A DNA stretch of 6,908 bases from Candidatus Heimdallarchaeota archaeon (GTDB taxonomy: Archaea > Asgardarchaeota > Heimdallarchaeia > JABLTI01). The stretch covers positions 1 through 6,908 of the forward strand of contig JAGMDP010000276.1 of NCBI GenBank assembly GCA_023128635.1, in the 5' to 3' direction. The translations under genes were made by a program, and so were the position numbers. Of the stretch, positions 1 through 6,908 are shown piece by piece. Below the pieces are notes generated by a model. The model had not been told where the DNA came from, made no database searches, and saw only the letters and a program-made list of their open reading frames with translations. Each line of letters opens with the position of its first letter. Position 1 is the stretch's first letter.

Positions 1-1098
1 GATGGAATTGTTCAAGCAATTTCTCCGGAAGTTGTCGTTGGATGCTCGACAAATGGTGAAATCGCTTCTGGTTATTGGAGAGAGAGTGTTATTGCAATTA
101 CTCTTTCAACTGATTACATGAGGTTTGGTATAGCAACAGAATCAAATGAGAAACTGGCTTCTGGGTCAAAAGAAGTCTATCAGCAATTCTATGAGCGAGC
201 CATTAAAGATTTGCGAAATAAGATGATTTTTCATAAATCAGAGATGACTGTTCCAGTTAATCCTCAAAATATCACCCCTGATTTCGGTATGGTTTTTCTT
301 CCGGGAACAGATACAGAACTCGATCCAAAAGCGAATGAAGTAGTCATTAATTTAAGAGAGTTCTTAGGAGATATACCCTTAATTGGTGGAGTGATAGGAG
401 ATGATTGCAATTATGAAACTGGTTATGTTATCTTCAAAGATGAATTCCTTGAAAATCACACCATTTTAATTCTTGGTCGCTCTGATTTAGAGTTTTCAAT
501 GGCTCAGAAACATGGATATCATCCAAAGAAAGAATTTTCTGTAACAAGTTCAAAAGGAAATAATCTTCTAACATTAGATAATCGTCCTGCTTCTGAAGTT
601 TATTTTGAAACTCTGAATTTACCAGTAGTTGAGATTTCGGATATGCGGGATGAAATTTGTGCGATAAATCCTCTTGGAATTAAAAATCCCATTACTGAAA
701 ACTTGGATATTCTCTTTCCAATGTCTCGAGGAAGAGATGCAACAGATCTAGTGGTTTCACAAAAAATTCCAGAAGGTTCTAAGATATTTGTTACTGAAGC
801 AGATGCCGAGGAATCCAAAAAAGCAACTTTAGAATCAATAAAGGAAGCCTTTTCCTCTGGACGAATTAAGGATCCTCGAGTTGGCATTATCTTTTCTTGC
901 GTCGGACGTAGCACTTTTTACTTTGACCGAGCTTTAGCAGAAATTGAAGAAATAAGGAATCGATTCAAGTATACAGATATTGGTGGTGCTTATTTGTATG
1001 GTACAATATGTGGAAAAAGTACCGGGATATCAGAAGGAACTTCCAGTACTCTACTAATAGGTAATAATCTCAGAGATAGAAGTAAAGAATCGAAATGA
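1..1098 (+). CDS. FIST-domain sensory protein (5' truncated by window edge)
   Basis: The frame is open from base 1 through the TGA at 1096-1098, so the gene begins upstream and the ATG at 118 is internal. The visible 365 codons match the FIST_N plus FIST_C layout. Codons 11-21 read VVVGCSTNGEI, the characteristic Gly-Cys-Ser-Thr-x-Gly turn of FIST_N. A GGVIGDDCNYETG segment followed by a beta-rich stretch marks the end of the N-terminal domain. The C-terminal half contains a GIIFSCVGRSTFYF strand-turn and ends with GGAYLYGTICG-like sequence typical of FIST_C. FIST proteins are cytoplasmic sensors thought to bind small ligands, possibly amino acids, and often work with histidine kinases or cyclic-di-nucleotide enzymes. 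No kinase or output domain is visible in this part, and the ligand cannot be deduced. The gene converges on the lipid kinase gene with 21 bp between the stop codons. Confidence 0.8.
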   Translation, partial: DGIVQAISPEVVVGCSTNGEIASGYWRESVIAITLSTDYMRFGIATESNEKLASGSKEVYQQFYERAIKDLRNKMIFHKSEMTVPVNPQNITPDFGMVFLPGTDTELDPKANEVVINLREFLGDIPLIGGVIGDDCNYETGYVIFKDEFLENHTILILGRSDLEFSMAQKHGYHPKKEFSVTSSKGNNLLTLDNRPASEVYFETLNLPVVEISDMRDEICAINPLGIKNPITENLDILFPMSRGRDATDLVVSQKIPEGSKIFVTEADAEESKKATLESIKEAFSSGRIKDPRVGIIFSCVGRSTFYFDRALAEIEEIRNRFKYTDIGGAYLYGTICGKSTGISEGTSSTLLIGNNLRDRSKESK

Positions 1099-1101
1099 TT
1101 G

Positions 1102-1109
1102 TTTTTTTT
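1102..1109 (+). terminator. T-tract terminator after the FIST gene
   Basis: A run of eight T lies three bases after the TGA of the FIST gene, in the 21-bp gap before the convergent gene. Archaeal RNA polymerase terminates at T-rich tracts without needing a hairpin, and no hairpin is seen here. The opposite strand has no comparable T-tract in this gap. Confidence 0.45.
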
Positions 1110-1119
1110 ATTCTCAACC

Positions 1120-2055
1120 TTAAAGATTATCAGAGAAAGTGACAGCATTATGCCATCCTTCTCTTTTTAGAATTTCATCAGACATTCTAAGTATTTTCAA
1201 TTTCTTTTGTAAACAGACAAATGTATGAGGTAATTCACCAAGTAATTCCCCCATAGCGTGTGCATGCACTTTCTTCTCAGATTCTGTACTAAGAACGATT
1301 TTTTTCCCTCTTATAATCTCACACTTGGGATGAGTTATATGCGTTCCATTTTTGAGCTTGGTTGAGGTAATTAAAGTTTCAAGAATTCTCGTGTTACCAA
1401 TAATAACCACCTCAAGTAAACCATCGTCAATTATTGCATTGGGGGCAACCATTTTCTTACTACCAGCTCTTTGACCATTCCCAAGCATAACAGTTAGAAC
1501 TTTACCATCTCTAACTACACGTCCATCGTCAATGTCAATCCGCATGTGTCTTGGACGGTAGGTTAAGATAGAACGAATCAAACCAATATTATAGATGATT
1601 CTCGTGCTTTTTCCGTGAACGATCTCAGAAAGATAACCATCTATACCTGCCCCAGCTATTCCCATGCAATATCTATCACCATTATTAATCTCCATACAAT
1701 CTATTATCCGATGTTGCTTCTCTGTGAGCATTTCAATTATATCTTCGATTTTATTGGTTTGTCGTATATTGAAAGCATTATCATTCCCTCTTCCCGAAGG
1801 AATAATTCCTAGCGTAGTCTTGAATCCAGTTTGACCGATACCAGTAATAATCTCATTAATAGTACCATCCCCTCCGTAACCAACTATTACATCATGATCA
1901 TCAACGGATTCTTTGACAATACGAATAGCATCATTCCTTCCTTTAGTCCATTCAACTTCGAAATCTAAGCCGGCCTCTTTGAGAGCCTTAACAACTTTTG
2001 GCCAAGCTTTTCTGGCTTTCCCACCATAAGTAGCTGGATTGCAAATTATTTTCAT
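1120..2055 (-). CDS. Diacylglycerol/sphingosine kinase-like lipid kinase (YegS/DAGK family)
   Basis: This 311-aa protein has the length and motif order of single-domain lipid kinases, which transfer phosphate from ATP to diacylglycerol or a related lipid at the inner face of the membrane. The nucleotide-binding signature GGDGTINE is at residues 61-68, preceded by the Asn-Pro (residues 6-7) of the first strand. GIIPSGRGNDNA at 83-94 corresponds to the usual G-x-x-P-x-GTGND, with Arg in place of Thr. GAGIDG at 135-140, GNGQRAG at 192-198 and APNAIIDDGLLEVV at 204-217 follow in the expected positions. Near the C-terminus the expected Asp-Gly-Glu appears as MGE (268-270), which keeps the Glu but loses the Asp. 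The ATG is preceded by AGGAG at 2066-2070 with a 10-base gap. An archaeal lipid substrate is likely but cannot be read from the sequence. Confidence 0.85.
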   Translation of the reverse strand: MKIICNPATYGGKARKAWPKVVKALKEAGLDFEVEWTKGRNDAIRIVKESVDDHDVIVGYGGDGTINEIITGIGQTGFKTTLGIIPSGRGNDNAFNIRQTNKIEDIIEMLTEKQHRIIDCMEINNGDRYCMGIAGAGIDGYLSEIVHGKSTRIIYNIGLIRSILTYRPRHMRIDIDDGRVVRDGKVLTVMLGNGQRAGSKKMVAPNAIIDDGLLEVVIIGNTRILETLITSTKLKNGTHITHPKCEIIRGKKIVLSTESEKKVHAHAMGELLGELPHTFVCLQKKLKILRMSDEILKREGWHNAVTFSDNL

Positions 2056-2158
2056 ACTTGTTGTTCTCCTGTTATACGAATCTCAAAACCATCCTCAAAG
2101 TAATATCTAATGACGATTTTTAGTAGTTTCGAAGATTCTTTGCAAAAACATTCATTTT

Positions 2159-2176
2159 TTAGAATTTAATTTCTAA
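2159..2176. repeat. 18-bp inverted repeat TTAGAA-N6-TTCTAA
   Basis: Two perfect 6-base arms flank a TTTAAT spacer in the divergent promoter region. The geometry suits a dimeric wHTH regulator. It could equally be chance in AT-rich sequence, and no second copy was found in this window. Confidence 0.3.
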
Positions 2177-2296
2177 TGGTCATTTAACAAAACTTATTTT
2201 AACATAAACGTTAACAAAAAGTGAGTAGTTAAGGAACAAGAAAAACGCACTCATTTACAAATCAAATTTCCATTAATTTCATCTATTTATTACGAA

Positions 2297-2310
2297 TTCC
2301 TTATGAGGAA
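2297..2310. repeat. Short dyad TTCCT-TATG-AGGAA upstream of the longin-like gene
   Basis: Perfect 5-base arms around a 4-base loop lie 32 bp before the start codon, between the presumed TATA region and the ribosome binding site at 2327-2331. It could be an operator or a small leader hairpin. Chance is also possible at this size. Confidence 0.2.
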
Positions 2311-2341
2311 AGATTAGGTATATTGCAGGAGTTATAGAAAA

Positions 2342-3094
2342 ATGCCCATCGCTAGACAAGTTATGATACTGACAAAAGAGGGGTTATTACTTCTAGATTA
2401 CAAATTCAGAGTGGATGATGCAGATTTAATGGAAACTGATCCTGATCTTCTATCCGGTATGTTATCAGCAATTCTCGCTGTAGCTAAAGAAACAACAGGC
2501 GGGTTAGTACAAACCATAAATCAGGACAAATATAATGTGCTAATAAGTGAAGGGGAAAAAATCTATGCGCTGCTCTTTATTGATGAAGAAAGCAGAGAAC
2601 TTGATAACATAGCAAAGCTGATTGTAGGAAGATTTGAAGCAAAATACAAAGAAGAATTGAAGGAAATAGTCACAGATGTTTCAGTGTTCAAAACCTTCCT
2701 GAAAGACCTAGAAGAGATTTATGCTCAAATATTCAAAGTAGATGCAGAACTACTCACGAAAATCATACCAGAAGTAACCAACATAAAAAACGTCTCTATA
2801 TTTGAAAAACCGATGAATCATCAAGTATACACCGGACCAAGAGATCCCTTCGTAAGTGACTATGAACATTATTTCCAGGAATTTGCTTTGAAACTCATCG
2901 AAAGCCAAGCAGAATTTTCAGAGAGGACTCTACAATTTCCAAATAGAACAATATTGGATTTCGGAACAAGAGTTATTGTACTAGAAGATCTTGGTTCACA
3001 CGTGTTAATGATAATAGGCGAAAATGCAGATGATATATTATCAAAAATAAAGAAAATAAGAAGGAAAGCAGGATTACAATCTCTTAAGAGATAA
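2342..3094 (+). CDS. Longin/roadblock-like domain protein
   Basis: This 250-aa protein begins with a strand and turn (VMILTKEGLLLLDYKF, residues 7-22), then a helix LSGMLSAILAVAKETTGG (37-54) and two strands (YNVLISEGEKIYALLFID). The pattern of strand, strand, 'LLSGMLSAI' helix, strand pair and final helix is that of longin or roadblock/LC7 modules found in many Asgard archaeal proteins, where such folds are thought to partner small GTPases or membrane-traffic-like machinery. Residues about 170-245 repeat a helix-strand-strand-helix order and may be a second, diverged module. There is no signal peptide or membrane segment. The ATG is preceded by AGGAG at 2327-2331 with a 10-base gap. No GTPase gene is adjacent, so the partner is unknown. 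The fold assignment rests on sequence pattern only. Confidence 0.5.
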   Translation: MPIARQVMILTKEGLLLLDYKFRVDDADLMETDPDLLSGMLSAILAVAKETTGGLVQTINQDKYNVLISEGEKIYALLFIDEESRELDNIAKLIVGRFEAKYKEELKEIVTDVSVFKTFLKDLEEIYAQIFKVDAELLTKIIPEVTNIKNVSIFEKPMNHQVYTGPRDPFVSDYEHYFQEFALKLIESQAEFSERTLQFPNRTILDFGTRVIVLEDLGSHVLMIIGENADDILSKIKKIRRKAGLQSLKR

Positions 3095-3144
3095 TTGTTG
3101 CCGGGCATAAGCGCAAGCGGAGTAATTTTATTCGCAATTTTTCA

Positions 3145-3162
3145 CAAGTTTTAAAATACTTG
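3145..3162 (+). promoter_or_regulatory. Putative TATA box inside an 18-bp dyad, promoter of the HD gene
   Basis: The sequence reads CAAGT-TTTAAAAT-ACTTG, with 5-base inverted arms surrounding a TATA-like core. About 25 bases downstream of the core falls near 3178, which would give a short leader containing the GGAG at 3190-3193. A TATA box enclosed by a dyad suggests control by a repressor that competes with TBP. Both the promoter and the operator are inference. Confidence 0.4.
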
Positions 3163-3189
3163 AGAAATTAAACAAGGCAAAGACTAATT

Positions 3190-3193
3190 GGAG
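3190..3193 (+). promoter_or_regulatory. Ribosome binding site that decides the start of the HD gene
   Basis: GGAG lies 8 bases before the ATG at 3202 but only 2 bases before the in-frame TTG at 3196. The spacing favours the ATG, so the protein is taken as 182 rather than 184 residues. Confidence 0.55.
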
Positions 3194-3201
3194 TTTTGGC
3201 A

Positions 3202-3750
3202 ATGCGAGAAGACGTGAAGAAAATTTGGCCAGAAATAGAATGGATAAAAGATAAGACACTAAAAGAAAATGTCTACAAAACATGGGAATACGCATTAGAA
3301 CAGAGCGTTTTAAGTGCAGAAGATTTAGAGAAAATACCATTTACATTATTGATTAAGGATTGCAAAGTTACTTTTATGGAGCACAAAAGAGCAGTCGTAT
3401 CCATAGCAGTGGAAGCAGCAAAAGTCATGCAGAAGTTTTTCGGAGAGAAACTACCAATAAAAATGGATTTACTAATTGCTGGAGCGATACTCATTGACGT
3501 CGGAAAACTATTGGAATACGTTCTAGAAGATGGAAAAGCAGTGGTAGGAAAAACAGGGAAACTACTACGACACCCATTTACAGGTGTAGGGGTAGCAATG
3601 ATGTTCGACATACCAGATGAAGTGTGCCACATGATAGCAACACACTCAAAGGAAGGAGACCTAGGAAAAAGAACAGTAGAAGGCATAATAGTACATCACG
3701 CAGACTTTATCAGCTATGAACCATTCAAAGCAGATACACTACGAATATAA
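3202..3750 (+). CDS. HD-superfamily phosphohydrolase-like protein with altered HD doublet
   Basis: The 182-aa protein has the helical HD-domain order: His61 in MEHKRAV, then AGAILIDVGKLLEY at 93-106, RHPFTGVG at 123-130, HMIATHSKEGD at 143-153 and HHADFISYEP at 165-174. These match the metal-ligand positions of HDIG-type hydrolases acting on phosphate esters or nucleotides. The HD doublet itself is I98-D99, so one of the usual metal-binding histidines is missing while the aspartate and the other His/Asp positions remain. The protein could be a variant single-metal hydrolase or a non-catalytic binder. It is cytoplasmic, with no signal or membrane segment. It seems to be a single-gene unit with its own promoter, ending 68 bp before the tRNA gene. 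The substrate cannot be deduced. Confidence 0.7.
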   Translation: MREDVKKIWPEIEWIKDKTLKENVYKTWEYALEQSVLSAEDLEKIPFTLLIKDCKVTFMEHKRAVVSIAVEAAKVMQKFFGEKLPIKMDLLIAGAILIDVGKLLEYVLEDGKAVVGKTGKLLRHPFTGVGVAMMFDIPDEVCHMIATHSKEGDLGKRTVEGIIVHHADFISYEPFKADTLRI

Positions 3751-3818
3751 GAGAAACCATATTCTTAACAAACGAAAGATTCAAAAAGAAAAAAGAAGGA
3801 AAAAAGAATCACTCCCGT

Positions 3819-3895
3819 GGGCGGGTGATCTAGCCTGGTATGATACCTCCTTGACGTGGAGGAAGTCGGGGATTCAAATTCCCCCTCGCCCACCA
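3819..3895 (+). tRNA. tRNA-Val (anticodon GAC)
   Basis: The cloverleaf folds fully. The acceptor arms are 3819-3825 (GGGCGGG) and 3885-3891 (CTCGCCC), with one G-T pair. The D arm is 3828-3844, with the conserved GG in the loop. The anticodon stem is CCTCC/GGAGG at 3846-3862 with loop TTGACGT, so the anticodon is GAC at 3853-3855 (valine, codons GTC and GTT). The T arm is GGGGA-TTCAAAT-TCCCC at 3868-3884. The discriminator is A (3892) and CCA is encoded (3893-3895). There is no intron. G follows the anticodon at position 37, where valine tRNAs usually have A. The gene is intact and its 3' end marks the start of the Cas1-bearing segment, as expected for an integration target restored by the inserted element. 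Confidence 0.95.
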
Positions 3896-3916
3896 TTTTT
3901 ACTTTTCTGTTTTTTC
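3896..3916 (+). terminator. T-rich terminator of the tRNA gene
   Basis: T-runs of five, four and six bases directly follow the CCA end, the usual archaeal tRNA termination signal. The same bases encode the C-terminus of the opposing 195-aa gene (stop codon at 3899-3901). The terminator is therefore supplied by what appears to be the end of the inserted element. Confidence 0.5.
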
Positions 3917-4486
3917 ATATCCAAGTGTTTTTTGCTTATTTTTCTTTAGGAATTCTTCAGTTATTTCTTTCGGCTCTTGAGTATCAGTTATTCCCTTTAT
4001 TATTTCCTCTTGGAATTCCTCATCTTCTCTTTTTGTTATTTCTCTGTATTTTCCTTTTTCTTCTATTTTCTCTGCTAATTTTTCTTCCAGTTCATTCTTT
4101 CTCTGTATCAGTTTCCATACTTTGCTTATCTTTTCTTTTTCTTTGTATCCTGTTTCGTTGTAATAATTCCATATCCTCTTTACTAGTTCGTTTTCTTTAT
4201 TTAGTGCATATTTTCTTTTTTCGTGTTTTAGTACTCCTTCTTTCACTACATTTTGCAGTTTCTTTATCGACCTGCTTTTTTTCCACGGTAATTTTTCTTG
4301 TAGCTCTGTTAGTGTATAGTTTTTTGTGTATCCTCTTTCCATTTTTTCTTTTACTATTAGCATTATTATTTGGTAACTTGCTTCTCCCTCATTTTCCACT
4401 ATATTTCTTATTTGTTCTGCTAGTCCTTCTCCTGATTTTTCTTTTGTCGTTTTTGCTAGTTTTCTTAGTTCTTCTTCCAGAGCCAT
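3899..4486 (-). CDS. Winged-helix/coiled-coil protein next to the Cas1 homologue
   Basis: This 195-aa Lys/Glu-rich protein belongs to no family that I recognise. Residues about 55-96 (from YTLTELQEKL through HEKRKYAL) have the order helix, turn, helix and beta-wing of a winged helix-turn-helix DNA-binding domain. Residues about 120-165 form a charged helix likely to be a coiled coil. The ATG is preceded by GGAG at 4493-4496 with a 6-base gap. It lies 22 bp after the stop codon of the Cas1-like gene, so the two are almost certainly cotranscribed. The stop codon is 3 bp from the tRNA 3' end, so the gene runs right to the presumed element boundary. It may help recognise the element end, act as a repressor, or assist the integrase. 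These roles are guesses from position and the DNA-binding fold. Confidence 0.7.
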   Translation of the reverse strand: MALEEELRKLAKTTKEKSGEGLAEQIRNIVENEGEASYQIIMLIVKEKMERGYTKNYTLTELQEKLPWKKSRSIKKLQNVVKEGVLKHEKRKYALNKENELVKRIWNYYNETGYKEKEKISKVWKLIQRKNELEEKLAEKIEEKGKYREITKREDEEFQEEIIKGITDTQEPKEITEEFLKKNKQKTLGYEKTEK

Positions 4487-4508
4487 TATTTTCTCCCACC
4501 ACTTTTCA

Positions 4509-6392
4509 TTAATTTACTTCTCTTATTGTTAATGGTTTGAACCTTGTTTTCTGATGTTCTTGTCTTAGAAATTTGATTAGCTTATTTTTCTCTTCTTTTC
4601 CCATCATGCTCCAAACATTTTCTTTTACTATTGCCCAAGGTTGGTAATCTATTCCATGATGCTTTACTTCGTAATAATTGCTACTTCTTTGTAGATCTTT
4701 TAGCCATTGTTTTCCTTGCCTGCGATGCTCTCTTATTATGTGCTTTCCTTTCTTTCCATTTACTATTTGATTTTGCGACTCCTCAACAATTTCTCTTAAT
4801 TGTTCATACAATTCTGTTCCTTGCTTTACGTAGTAGATTTTCTCTCTATTTCTTCCTCTATGATATGGCACTTCTTTTGGGTTTATCCTGCCGTCTTTTA
4901 TTGCTTTTAGCAAATTCAGTATTGGCAGTATTTTTTCTGGCTCCCTCAAATCCAAATGAAATCCGAACACTCCTCCTTTTGTTTTTTTATGACATAGTCC
5001 TGGGTACCCATCCCAGCAAAAGTCTATTTCTATACAATATTCTTTCACAAAATCTCCACTAATGCCAAAAATACTATTTATCAGAGCGTCAATTTGCGAA
5101 TAAGCGTAATATTTCAGATATGGTAGTGATGGATCATTTACCTTTCTACTTTTCACTCTCCCAGGAAATGCTATTCTCAGTTTTCCTAAATATGCGCTAA
5201 TTACTCCCCACATTTCTTTTCCTGCTCTCATCTCGAAAACATTCCATTCTTTAGGGGTTATCTGAGGTTTTTCTTTTACTTCATTGATTATTTGTTCGAT
5301 TGATTTTATTGCCTTTCTTACCAGAATTTCTTTTTCTCTATCAAAAAGTTCATGTGTCAGTTTAATTATCAATATTCTGTTTTCCAGCATTGGCATGCAA
5401 AAATCTTTGTTTGCAATATTTGTTTTTCTTAGTAATCCCAATAAGCCAATGTGTTGTTTTATTGGATGTGGACTGACTAGTTTATCGTCCCCTAATATGA
5501 TATCAATCTCATATCCTTTTGCTGGTAATATCTCTTCCAGATAATCTGAATCCTCTTTTCTTTTCGTTACGATATACATTATGTTATTCAATTTTCCAAC
5601 TAAATTGTTCACTGTTAATGTTCGATTTCTAAAATTTAAGTTACATTCTCTTAAATCATGGATAACTATTCCATACTTATCACTTGAATACAAATCTTCA
5701 GGCTCAATTTCTTTTGTCACTCTTAGGAAGTTTCTTTTGTATTCCTTTCCTTTTTCTGTATTATAATGAACATAGAATGCTTTCTTTTTATGATTGTAAA
5801 TTGTTTTATAAAATGATTCACACTCCTCACATCGTACAACTGAGCTTCCCAATTTAGCAATAAATTCGTTACCTAGCACTGGTAGTTCTGCGTTACATTC
5901 CTCGTTTGCACAGTGATAGCTTATCTTTAGTTTATTTTCTGCATCGGTTATTTGTCTGTTCTTATCTAGAAATTCTTCCAATCGTCTACGACACCAATTC
6001 ATTTTCCTCTCTATAAATCCCTCATCGCAAGCATAGGTAAATTTTGTTAGCTTAACTCCGACACGATCTGGTCTGATAATAAATCCTCGTTCTGCTAACT
6101 CTTCATGAAAAGTACAATCTGCTATCGAGCTTTTAACATGACATTTAAAACATCTTTTTCCGAGATTCTTTGGCCATTCAGCTTTTGGTGTTTTGTAGAA
6201 GACAATTCCACCCTTTGTTCTAGCAACCCGTTTAGCATCAAGCAGTTTCATTTCCTTTAGTTTAGTGATGTGCCTATGAATTAAACTATTAGAATATCCT
6301 AGTTTCTCCACCAGGTCATTTATTGTAACTGGATAATTATCCGAATTACTGGTTATTTTATCAAGTATTTCTGTTTGAATTTTGTTTAGCAA
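4509..6392 (-). CDS. Cas1-family integrase with N-terminal winged helix and zinc clusters (casposase/solo-Cas1-like)
   Basis: This 627-aa protein, about twice the usual Cas1 length, would catalyse DNA integration. Residues 1-68 form a MarR/ArsR-like winged helix. C81-x2-C84-x8-C93-x2-H96 and C161-x4-C166 with C188-x2-C191 are candidate zinc sites. Residues about 240-330 resemble the Cas1 N-terminal beta domain (AKGYEIDIILGDDKLVSP). The catalytic alpha domain follows. EMRAGKEMW at 387-395 matches the Cas1 E-G-x-A-A-x-x-Y-W helix with E387. FPGRVKSRKVNDP at 409-421 and the DALINSIFG helix match the next conserved blocks. GLCH at 465-468 supplies H468, and FHLDLREP at 478-485 supplies D481 and E484, the Cas1 D-x-x-E/D position. 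Residues 506-627 are basic and may contain a further DNA-binding domain, as casposases have. The start is TTG at 6390-6392, preceded by GAGG at 6400-6403. An in-frame TGA lies four codons upstream, and the first in-frame ATG (M48) would destroy the winged helix. No other cas gene is near. Confidence 0.82.
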   Translation of the reverse strand: MLNKIQTEILDKITSNSDNYPVTINDLVEKLGYSNSLIHRHITKLKEMKLLDAKRVARTKGGIVFYKTPKAEWPKNLGKRCFKCHVKSSIADCTFHEELAERGFIIRPDRVGVKLTKFTYACDEGFIERKMNWCRRRLEEFLDKNRQITDAENKLKISYHCANEECNAELPVLGNEFIAKLGSSVVRCEECESFYKTIYNHKKKAFYVHYNTEKGKEYKRNFLRVTKEIEPEDLYSSDKYGIVIHDLRECNLNFRNRTLTVNNLVGKLNNIMYIVTKRKEDSDYLEEILPAKGYEIDIILGDDKLVSPHPIKQHIGLLGLLRKTNIANKDFCMPMLENRILIIKLTHELFDREKEILVRKAIKSIEQIINEVKEKPQITPKEWNVFEMRAGKEMWGVISAYLGKLRIAFPGRVKSRKVNDPSLPYLKYYAYSQIDALINSIFGISGDFVKEYCIEIDFCWDGYPGLCHKKTKGGVFGFHLDLREPEKILPILNLLKAIKDGRINPKEVPYHRGRNREKIYYVKQGTELYEQLREIVEESQNQIVNGKKGKHIIREHRRQGKQWLKDLQRSSNYYEVKHHGIDYQPWAIVKENVWSMMGKEEKNKLIKFLRQEHQKTRFKPLTIREVN

Positions 6393-6454
6393 ACCAAAAC
6401 CTCAACAAATTTGTTACTAATACATTCCAAATTCATCTCATTATTACCCATCAT
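6386..6454 (-). CDS. Possible 22-codon leader ORF overlapping the start of the Cas1-like gene
   Basis: Two adjacent in-frame ATGs (6452-6454 and 6449-6451) open a 22-residue frame, MMGNNEMNLECISNKFVEVL followed by VC. Its TAA stop (6386-6388) overlaps the TTG start of the Cas1-like gene in the sequence TTGCTAA. It begins 10 bp after the stop codon of the 138-aa gene, with a weak AGGT upstream. If translated, it could couple translation onto the weak TTG start. It is short enough to occur by chance, and the GAGG before the TTG already gives an independent initiation site. Confidence 0.22.
   Translation of the reverse strand: MMGNNEMNLECISNKFVEVLVC
6400..6403 (-). promoter_or_regulatory. Ribosome binding site supporting the TTG start of the Cas1-like gene
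   Basis: On the minus strand GAGG stands 7 bases before the TTG at 6392-6390. With the in-frame TGA at 6402-6404 just upstream, this fixes the start within a few codons. Confidence 0.55.
6404..6415. promoter_or_regulatory. Perfect 12-bp palindrome AACAAATTTGTT before the Cas1-like gene
   Basis: The perfect dyad lies directly upstream of the GAGG ribosome binding site. A dimeric winged-helix protein could bind here, and both the Cas1-like protein and the 195-aa neighbour carry such domains, so autoregulation is possible. No second copy was found in the window. Confidence 0.3.
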
Positions 6455-6464
6455 TTTCTACCTT

Positions 6465-6881
6465 TTAGTTGGCTTGAATGAAATCCTCCTCACTATTACT
6501 TTCCCCATATTTTGAGAACATCTCTGATCTGAACAAAGTTAGTTCGTCTCTAATGAATTCTTCAAGAGATTTGTTCACATTGCCATATGTCCTGCTTGAA
6601 AAGATGCGCTCAACAAATTTTTCAATATCTTTATCTGTTATCTTTTTGATTACTGATTCTCTAATCCTATTTTCTTCTTGTTTTCTAACTTTTGTTTCTT
6701 TTTTCACCCTAAGTTCTTCCTCTAATCTTACAATTTCTTTTTTTAGGTCTTCTTTTAATTCTTGCAGTGATTGAGGTTGGTTATACATGTCACTGATAAA
6801 AGCCATTCTTGAGTAGAGTTCTTCCTCTGAGAGCGTTTGTTTTATCCAAATGGTATTTTGATTTTTTTGAGTGGTAATCAT
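6465..6881 (-). CDS. Small Lys/Glu-rich coiled-coil protein, first visible gene of the element operon
   Basis: This 138-aa protein is of unknown family. Residues about 35-82 form a long charged helix with Leu/Ile/Val spacing typical of a coiled coil (LKEDLKKEIVRLEEEL). A second helical block follows at about 83-122 (DIEKFVERIF, LEEFIRDELTLF), and there is an acidic tail. There is no membrane segment or signal peptide. It lies 72 bp before the TTG of the Cas1-like gene on the same strand, so cotranscription is likely. The ATG at 6879-6881 has no good ribosome binding site within the 27 bases visible upstream, which would fit a leaderless transcript or a start further in (Met26 or Met32). It may be an accessory or regulatory factor of the element. 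No direct evidence of function is seen. Confidence 0.6.
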   Translation of the reverse strand: MITTQKNQNTIWIKQTLSEEELYSRMAFISDMYNQPQSLQELKEDLKKEIVRLEEELRVKKETKVRKQEENRIRESVIKKITDKDIEKFVERIFSSRTYGNVNKSLEEFIRDELTLFRSEMFSKYGESNSEEDFIQAN

Positions 6882-6896
6882 GTTCTTTTTCTTTAG

Positions 6897-6906
6897 TTTT
6901 TTAATT
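6897..6906 (-). promoter_or_regulatory. Weak TATA-like box before the 138-aa gene
   Basis: The minus strand reads AATTAAAAAA, 16-25 bases upstream of the ATG. This spacing puts the transcription start near the ATG itself and fits a leaderless mRNA, in agreement with the missing ribosome binding site. Only 27 bases are visible upstream, and the surroundings are AT-rich. Confidence 0.22.
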
Positions 6907-6908
6907 GC

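Follow-up and report, generated by a model that had tools for sequence, protein, structure and literature searches.

We examined a contig of 6,908 nucleotides (JAGMDP010000276.1, positions 1 to 6,908, assembly GCA_023128635.1) from a Candidatus Heimdallarchaeota archaeon, referred to throughout as the window, in which a gene for a Cas1-like protein lies beside a tRNA-Val gene. The Cas1-like gene is the open reading frame (ORF) at 4509-6392 of the minus strand, which begins at a TTG start and encodes 627 aa in the ORF list; the plus strand across the same interval contains many stops. The members of its family were classed by length and motif into class A (~627 aa, the type in the window), class B (~700 aa), class C (~670-710 aa), class D (~1000-1400 aa, with a long N-terminal part) and class E (~500 aa, split). 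The following features were identified in the window, with wHTH denoting a winged helix-turn-helix (HTH).

3819-3895, plus strand: tRNA-Val (GAC), a host gene found by tRNA scan, whose 3' end is the putative border of an element
3895-3896, no strand: putative element border between the tRNA 3' CCA and the element, placed by analogy with relatives, 3 bases before the end of the accessory gene; the far border would lie outside the window
3899-4486, minus strand: accessory gene, 195 aa, wHTH-like with long helices, which adjoins the Cas1-like gene at each class A or B locus read
4509-6392, minus strand: Cas1-like integrase gene, 627 aa, from ORF, alignment, profile and predicted fold
4512-5696, minus strand: residues 233-627, Cas1-like core, from predicted structure, fold and profile alignment
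4941-4943, minus strand: codon of E484 (Glu in 48 of 52 aligned members, Asp in 4 of 52)
4950-4952, minus strand: codon of D481, the Cas1 catalytic Asp position in profile alignments
4989-4991, minus strand: codon of H468, the Cas1 catalytic His position in profile alignments
5232-5234, minus strand: codon of E387, the Cas1 catalytic Glu position in profile alignments
5820-6152, minus strand: residues 81-191, with cysteines C81, C84, C93 and C122, and C161, C166, C188 and C191, conserved in the alignment
6183-6392, minus strand: residues 1-70, N-terminal wHTH domain, from Pfam search, predicted structure and fold search
6465-6908, minus strand: second wHTH gene of the module, its 5' part lost at the window end (E 1.2e-49 against the wHTH profile)

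The window protein by itself gave no Cas1 match in Pfam, NCBIfam, PHROGs, PADLOC or the PDB sequences, where only HTH matches and noise were recorded, and hmmsearch of either family profile (A1, or A2 from a broader core alignment) against PDB chains also returned no Cas1. The relationship to Cas1 proposed in an earlier note on this DNA was borne out by hhalign with a 52-sequence profile (E 8.8e-11; control 0.2), by agreement of the predicted structure with the Cas1 fold, and by one class A relative (L007, on a 15.7-kb contig) that passes the curated cut-off of Pfam PF01867 (25.6 vs 22.3 bits). A PF01867 match was found in only one of 19 A2 members. The helical domain at residues 302-627 of the core aligns to Cas1, the beta region covers about residues 233-300 by our reading, and the model has pLDDT under 50 at residues 463-481. 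Profile comparison and modelling thus support the window protein as a diverged member of the Cas1 superfamily. The conserved cysteines at residues 81-191 may form zinc ribbons, with zinc binding suggested by the sequence.

Residues E387, H468, D481 and E484, as printed from the alignment, stand where the earlier note had placed the Cas1 catalytic blocks. It had also described the spacings correctly, the Glu-His distance being longer than in genuine Cas1 (81 vs 65) and the His-Asp distance close to it (13 vs 12), with the genuine values taken from two proteins of related genomes (L024 and L089); L093 and L025 were left out, wrong residues having been picked for them. The extra Glu-His residues fall between the PGR and SxID segments in the profile alignments. 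The catalytic motifs are nearly invariant across 27 aligned sequences and across 52 members of the five classes, and are therefore not chance. H468, D481, R412 and R416 are each conserved in 52/52, while position 387 is Glu in 44/52 and Asp in 8/52 (all six class B members and two of class A). This alignment comprises the window protein and 51 of 61 matches, ten having been dropped as having an absent or partial core or no class.

The family was encountered among Heimdallarchaeota. Twenty-six homologues were recovered from the protein database among 7996 scored candidates, with two more pieces found when the alignment served as query, and the named homologues (7/28) are all Candidatus Heimdallarchaeota. 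A scan of GTDB contigs gave three loci, again all Heimdallarchaeota, and the two genomes behind them hold 11 and 9 profile matches, so the family is multi-copy and diverse. Profile A1 matched 15 of the 58 genomes of the class, six of them through the HTH part alone (G039, G041, G044, G045, G047 and G048); removal of these leaves nine, with only partial matches in G057 and G058. Profile A2 gave 60 matches in 11 of the 58 genomes, with at most 18 per genome and some fragments, and these include frames of ~1000 aa in G039, G041 and G044. No relative was found in two scans of IMG/VR. It was observed that at five loci (L014, L016, L021, L023 and L078) Cas1-like or HTH parts of the family lie inside frames of ~900-1400 aa whose N-terminal regions look helicase-like by eye; Pfam found no helicase in the long N-terminal parts of the class D-type frames scanned.

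We then characterized the genes surrounding the Cas1-like gene, searching module profiles over the ORFs of the fetched contigs. Among 25 contigs carrying a Cas1-like gene, a Cas4-family gene was found on 19, the accessory gene on 21, a LAGLIDADG gene on 18 and the second wHTH gene on 12, the last comprising every class A locus whose flanks are complete (six), the window piece and five of six class B loci. The LAGLIDADG and wHTH profiles were built from class A loci and the accessory and Cas4 profiles from classes A and B, so that matches at these loci follow from how the profiles were made. This does not apply to the seven class C contigs, which possess Cas4 in 7/7, LAGLIDADG in 7/7 and the accessory gene in 6/7 (weakly). 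Cas4 was missing from six: three whose sequence breaks off (the window, L001 and G057:C380) and three with a class D or E locus. The Cas4-like proteins carry PD-(D/E)XK-type motifs and one N-terminal and three C-terminal cysteines, present in 12, 12, 11 and 11 of 12 aligned proteins; the exception is the copy on contig C6 of genome G002 (L036), which also lacks a PADLOC Cas4 match, two of the three Cas4-like proteins scanned being matched by PADLOC models.

Some elements also carry a NERD nuclease, RadA-like, Orc1/Cdc6 or TnpB gene. TnpB genes occur next to or near the module at five loci (L038 1304-2932, L064 17683-18876, L069 4263-5456, G002:C6 38059-39702 and L072 18937-19998), identified by Pfam in three and by profile in C6 and G056C9; that of C6 lies outside the tRNA-bounded element, and we regard these genes as cargo or separate insertion sequences. 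The accessory protein was considered as a Cas2 candidate and rejected, its low-confidence model (pTM 0.42, no fold search made) giving helices and a wing-like hairpin instead. The cut wHTH gene of the window showed a Pfam 2CompARG match at 6465-6881 barely over the cut-off (30.9 vs 27), probably through a helical stretch; this match and HTH matches to Csa3/CARF proteins were judged uninformative.

The surroundings had been described as lacking any CRISPR-cas context. For the window this is correct, as family-library and repeat searches found no cas2, cas4, effector gene or repeat array in it. It also stands for cas2, effectors and arrays as searched around the relatives, but not for Cas4, since they have a Cas4-family nuclease next door. 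A simple finder, which detects arrays in 5/8 genuine cas1 stretches, recorded no CRISPR array in 37 contig pieces (702 kb). All four cas2 matches over the cut-off in nine genomes lie beside genuine cas1, and no clear cas2 was found near the Cas1-like module genes of those genomes; the pairing of cas2 and array with cas1 that marks a CRISPR adaptation module was thus not seen. Three weak cas2 matches fell below the cut-off (E 0.02-0.06). Two of these three lie in frames of ~780 aa, each no more than ~1.2 kb from a Cas1-like gene of class E (G056:C110 37274-37459 and G001:C397 2241-2405). In G002:C11, a frame comparable in size and place (L111 11409-13736) encodes a DEAD helicase whose C-terminal part has a weak Cas3-like match under the cut-off.

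The loci were next compared at their borders. The accessory gene ends 3 bases from the tRNA 3' CCA in the window, 5 in L001, 1 in contig C13 and 61 in contig C43, where the tRNA is tRNA-Ala. The window and L001 represent the same tRNA-Val locus, because genes for FIST, DAG-kinase, 250-aa and 184-aa proteins follow in the same order; the tRNA-Val has no intron in the window (3819-3895) and a 31-nt intron in L001 (2146-2253). Genome G002 possesses three class A copies (C43, C13 and C6) at three tRNAs. Displaced copies of the tRNA 3' end occur at 10.3 and again at 13.1 kb in C43, at 10.6, 11.1 and 14.1 kb in C13, and at 8.0 kb in C6, where a tRNA-Leu lies on the opposite side of the module. The far border of each of the three copies is such a displaced end, 8.0-10.6 kb off, and the elements are accordingly flanked by direct repeats of the kind left by target site duplication. 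Of the eight class A loci read, five have a tRNA 3' end as one border and three have displaced copies on the far side.

The same tRNA appeared to have different occupants among related genomes. In C13, a cut second copy of the accessory gene lies behind the middle displaced tRNA end and is followed by a further remnant; these are earlier insertions at this site. In G054, a CopG-PIN cassette (names from Pfam) directly adjoins the same tRNA-Val; its counterpart in C13 (87.7% identity over 891 nt) lies beyond the last displaced copy, and therefore the 14.1 kb of C13 is absent from G054. G055 has a decayed module with a Cas4 gene at this tRNA-Val. These observations bear on whether the Cas1-Cas4-LAGLIDADG module is a host-serving adaptation or defence system that captures foreign DNA, as might be suggested by the pairing of Cas1 and Cas4 in CRISPR adaptation, by class B and C modules present in one or few copies across several genomes, and by toxin-antitoxin genes inside tRNA-bounded cassettes. 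We consider a host module highly unlikely, given class A copies at three different tRNA genes of one genome with displaced tRNA ends, a module that is present, decayed or replaced at one tRNA, the remnants of older insertions, and the lack of a nearby array or of cas2 over the cut-off.

Which enzyme performs the integration was addressed by searching for other recombinases. Tyrosine recombinases (PF00589) were present in 6/7 genomes, with none in G007, and in five carriers of the family (G001, G002, G054, G055 and G056; G052, G053 and G057 were not searched) none was found on class A, B or C module contigs. On two contigs (G002:C19 and G055:C78) a tyrosine recombinase occurs together with a distant or fragmentary Cas1-like match, with tens of kilobases between them. 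Among the element genes of C6, C43, C13 and C364 (Pfam, not every small ORF), no recombinase beyond RadA and TnpB was found. Because no tyrosine recombinase was found on the module contigs searched, and because of its homology, constancy and position, the Cas1-like protein is the best integrase candidate. The window protein is probably a diverged Cas1-family integrase of an integrative mobile element of Heimdallarchaeia.

Several observations weigh against this assignment. The window contains one border only; three of the eight class A loci (C364, G055:C48 and G054:C20) have no intact tRNA 3' border, the tRNA-like end of G054:C20 being decayed and seen by eye only and C364 having tRNA-like inverted repeats; and the class B and C loci showed no tRNA border in the stretches read, except for a tRNA-Asp near G002:C17. 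The length of tRNA copied varies, roughly 26-42 nt. When 21 displaced/reference pairs were averaged, similarity was at background before position -36, and the similarity from -23 to -1 is inflated, the displaced copies having been chosen by a pattern that fixes part of the profile in advance; among these pairs, the first G002C21 copy is not an intact tRNA, and for several references acceptor pairing was the sole criterion of intactness. The displaced copies of C13 are closer to the tRNA-Val genes of L001 and G052 than to the intact tRNA-Val of C13 itself, which has a different acceptor stem. Position 387 is Asp in eight members, and the recombinase negatives do not extend to serine recombinases and DDE transposases, which were not searched. 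Displaced tRNA-Leu 3' ends also occur in L115 (G007:C47) and L117 (G005:C1). Both genomes have a genuine Cas1, but no Cas1-like gene was found in either with A1 or A2. Apart from a NERD-like ORF, no gene of the module was seen in the stretches read at the small tRNA-bounded cassettes of G054:C89 and G002:C21.

Two simple associations were also ruled out: displaced tRNA ends are not confined to carriers (G005 and G007), and counts of tRNA 3' ends are not raised in them (20-50 per carrier vs 0-43 in the rest). It was also noted that two 32-nt inverted copies of the 5' half of a tRNA (965-996 and 9426-9457, 91%) enclose the class A module of L038, in contrast to other loci, where the borders are 3' ends.

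Because displaced tRNA ends are found in two genomes without the family, the integrase role is one that we infer rather than observe. A true Cas1 homologue might instead process or repair element DNA together with Cas4, while the elements enter tRNA genes through an enzyme acting in trans, either a tyrosine recombinase or LAGLIDADG cutting followed by recombination. The family-free genomes with displaced ends would fit this explanation, as would the tyrosine recombinases elsewhere in the five carriers searched and the several short tRNA-bounded cassettes without a visible integrase gene. However, the module contigs of those carriers hold no tyrosine recombinase, G007 has displaced copies yet none was found in its genome, and the integrase-like gene common to the module loci is the Cas1-like gene with its catalytic positions. 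An enzyme in trans is therefore a serious but unlikely explanation in our judgement.

With the Cas1-like enzyme as integrase, we infer a staggered-cut mechanism with roles for Cas4 and the accessory protein. The Cas4-family nuclease would trim the free element at its ends. The Cas1-like protein would recognise the T-arm and 3' end of a tRNA gene, guided by its own N-terminal wHTH and Cys-rich part and by the wHTH-like accessory protein. Two transesterifications ~30 nt apart would insert the element just 3' of the tRNA and duplicate the tRNA 3' end. The host tRNA would remain whole, and a second copy of its final ~26-42 nt would stand, displaced, at the far side. Repeated insertions at one tRNA would give stacked elements, with the newest adjoining the tRNA.

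Casposons are the closest point of comparison. According to the published descriptions, they use a Cas1-family integrase outside CRISPR and carry nuclease and HTH genes, with some located at tRNA 3' ends (Krupovic et al. 2014, PMC4046053), and tandem insertion and Cas4 and NERD cargo are recorded as well (PMC6563490). For the A. boonei casposase, whose target is a tRNA-Pro, the recognised sequence is reported to be TCAAATC (PMC6614799); the tRNA ends at the Heimdall elements have the same sequence in their T-loop. A canonical casposon of a known family would account for all of these components (PMC4046053, PMC6563490, PMC6614799), but we consider this extremely improbable. No PolB was found among the scanned element genes of C6, C43, C13 and C364, and terminal inverted repeats did not stand out in any of four pairs of 200-bp ends (32, 58, 146 and 222 of 300 shuffles score as high). 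The copied tRNA stretch of ~26-42 nt includes the T-arm, compared with a reported target duplication of 14-15 bp in A. boonei (PMC6614799) and an overlap of 4-7 nt in the euryarchaeal casposons described (PMC4046053). Further, the wHTH and Cys-rich part is N-terminal, whereas family 2 casposases have a C-terminal HTH; the conserved partner is LAGLIDADG rather than HNH; and most Heimdall members are too diverged for PF01867. Of the earlier suggestion of a casposon or solo-Cas1 locus, the part that survives is the working of the enzyme, which may be casposase-like by analogy; with both PolB and terminal inverted repeats missing where tested, we do not file the element as a casposon.

The Cas1-Cas2-Cas4 module of CRISPR shares with these loci the Cas1 fold, the catalytic positions and a neighbouring Cas4-family nuclease. 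It differs in its cas2 and array, no cas2 over the cut-off and no nearby array having been found here, and the repeated unit in the Heimdall loci is a tRNA 3' end with kilobase gene blocks as inserts. Solo-Cas4 and mobile-element Cas4 genes, as portrayed by Hudaiberdiev et al. (2017, PMC5704561), likewise place a four-cysteine Cas4 nuclease in mobile elements; unlike these, the Heimdall Cas4 is linked to a diverged Cas1-like gene in 19/19 class A, B and C contigs with a complete flank on that side. Aloposons and other Heimdallarchaeum mobile elements also lie at tRNA genes in this group, but Aloposons are defined by giant genes, and the main text of that report is silent on casposons, Cas4 and Cas1 (PMC8813620).

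A further resemblance was noted at two loci, L107 (G054:C89, 4877-18862) and L109 (G002:C21, 5263-11498), where cassettes of one or few genes are split by tRNA 3' end copies in an integron-like manner; the cassettes hold methyltransferase genes and, in L109, a HicA/HicB pair (Pfam). Integrons use IntI and attC sites. Archaeal integrons, described in PMC9668308 as gene-cassette platforms enriched in Asgard archaea, are similar in this respect, but the separators in the Heimdall loci are tRNA 3' ends. In the open-licence PMC literature, no paper describing this Cas1-like family was found, which is not proof of its absence in print.

The two well-known homes of Cas1 are casposons and CRISPR. To these the family examined here, which occurs in archaea close to eukaryotes, adds a Cas1 branch that is both large and very diverged. 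It has conserved partners of its own, a Cas4-family nuclease among them, and the target that is copied is a tRNA 3' end similar in length to a CRISPR repeat. The family provides another setting in which to test how Cas1 chooses its targets, whether Cas4 served Cas1 before CRISPR, and how arrays originated, and it may reveal what a Cas1 enzyme does outside CRISPR. A bolder proposal, which we hold to be speculative and decidedly unlikely, is that the Cas1-Cas4 system of Heimdallarchaeia builds arrays at tRNA genes, with the tRNA in the role of leader, the ~30 nt at its 3' end (palindromic T-arm included) as repeat, and genes or cassettes as inserts (toxin-antitoxin pairs, methyltransferases or whole elements), the newest adjoining the tRNA. 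If this were true, the tRNA arrays would amount to CRISPR-like arrays made up of genes, and would show in living form how a Cas1 integrase might move from transposition to the building of arrays.
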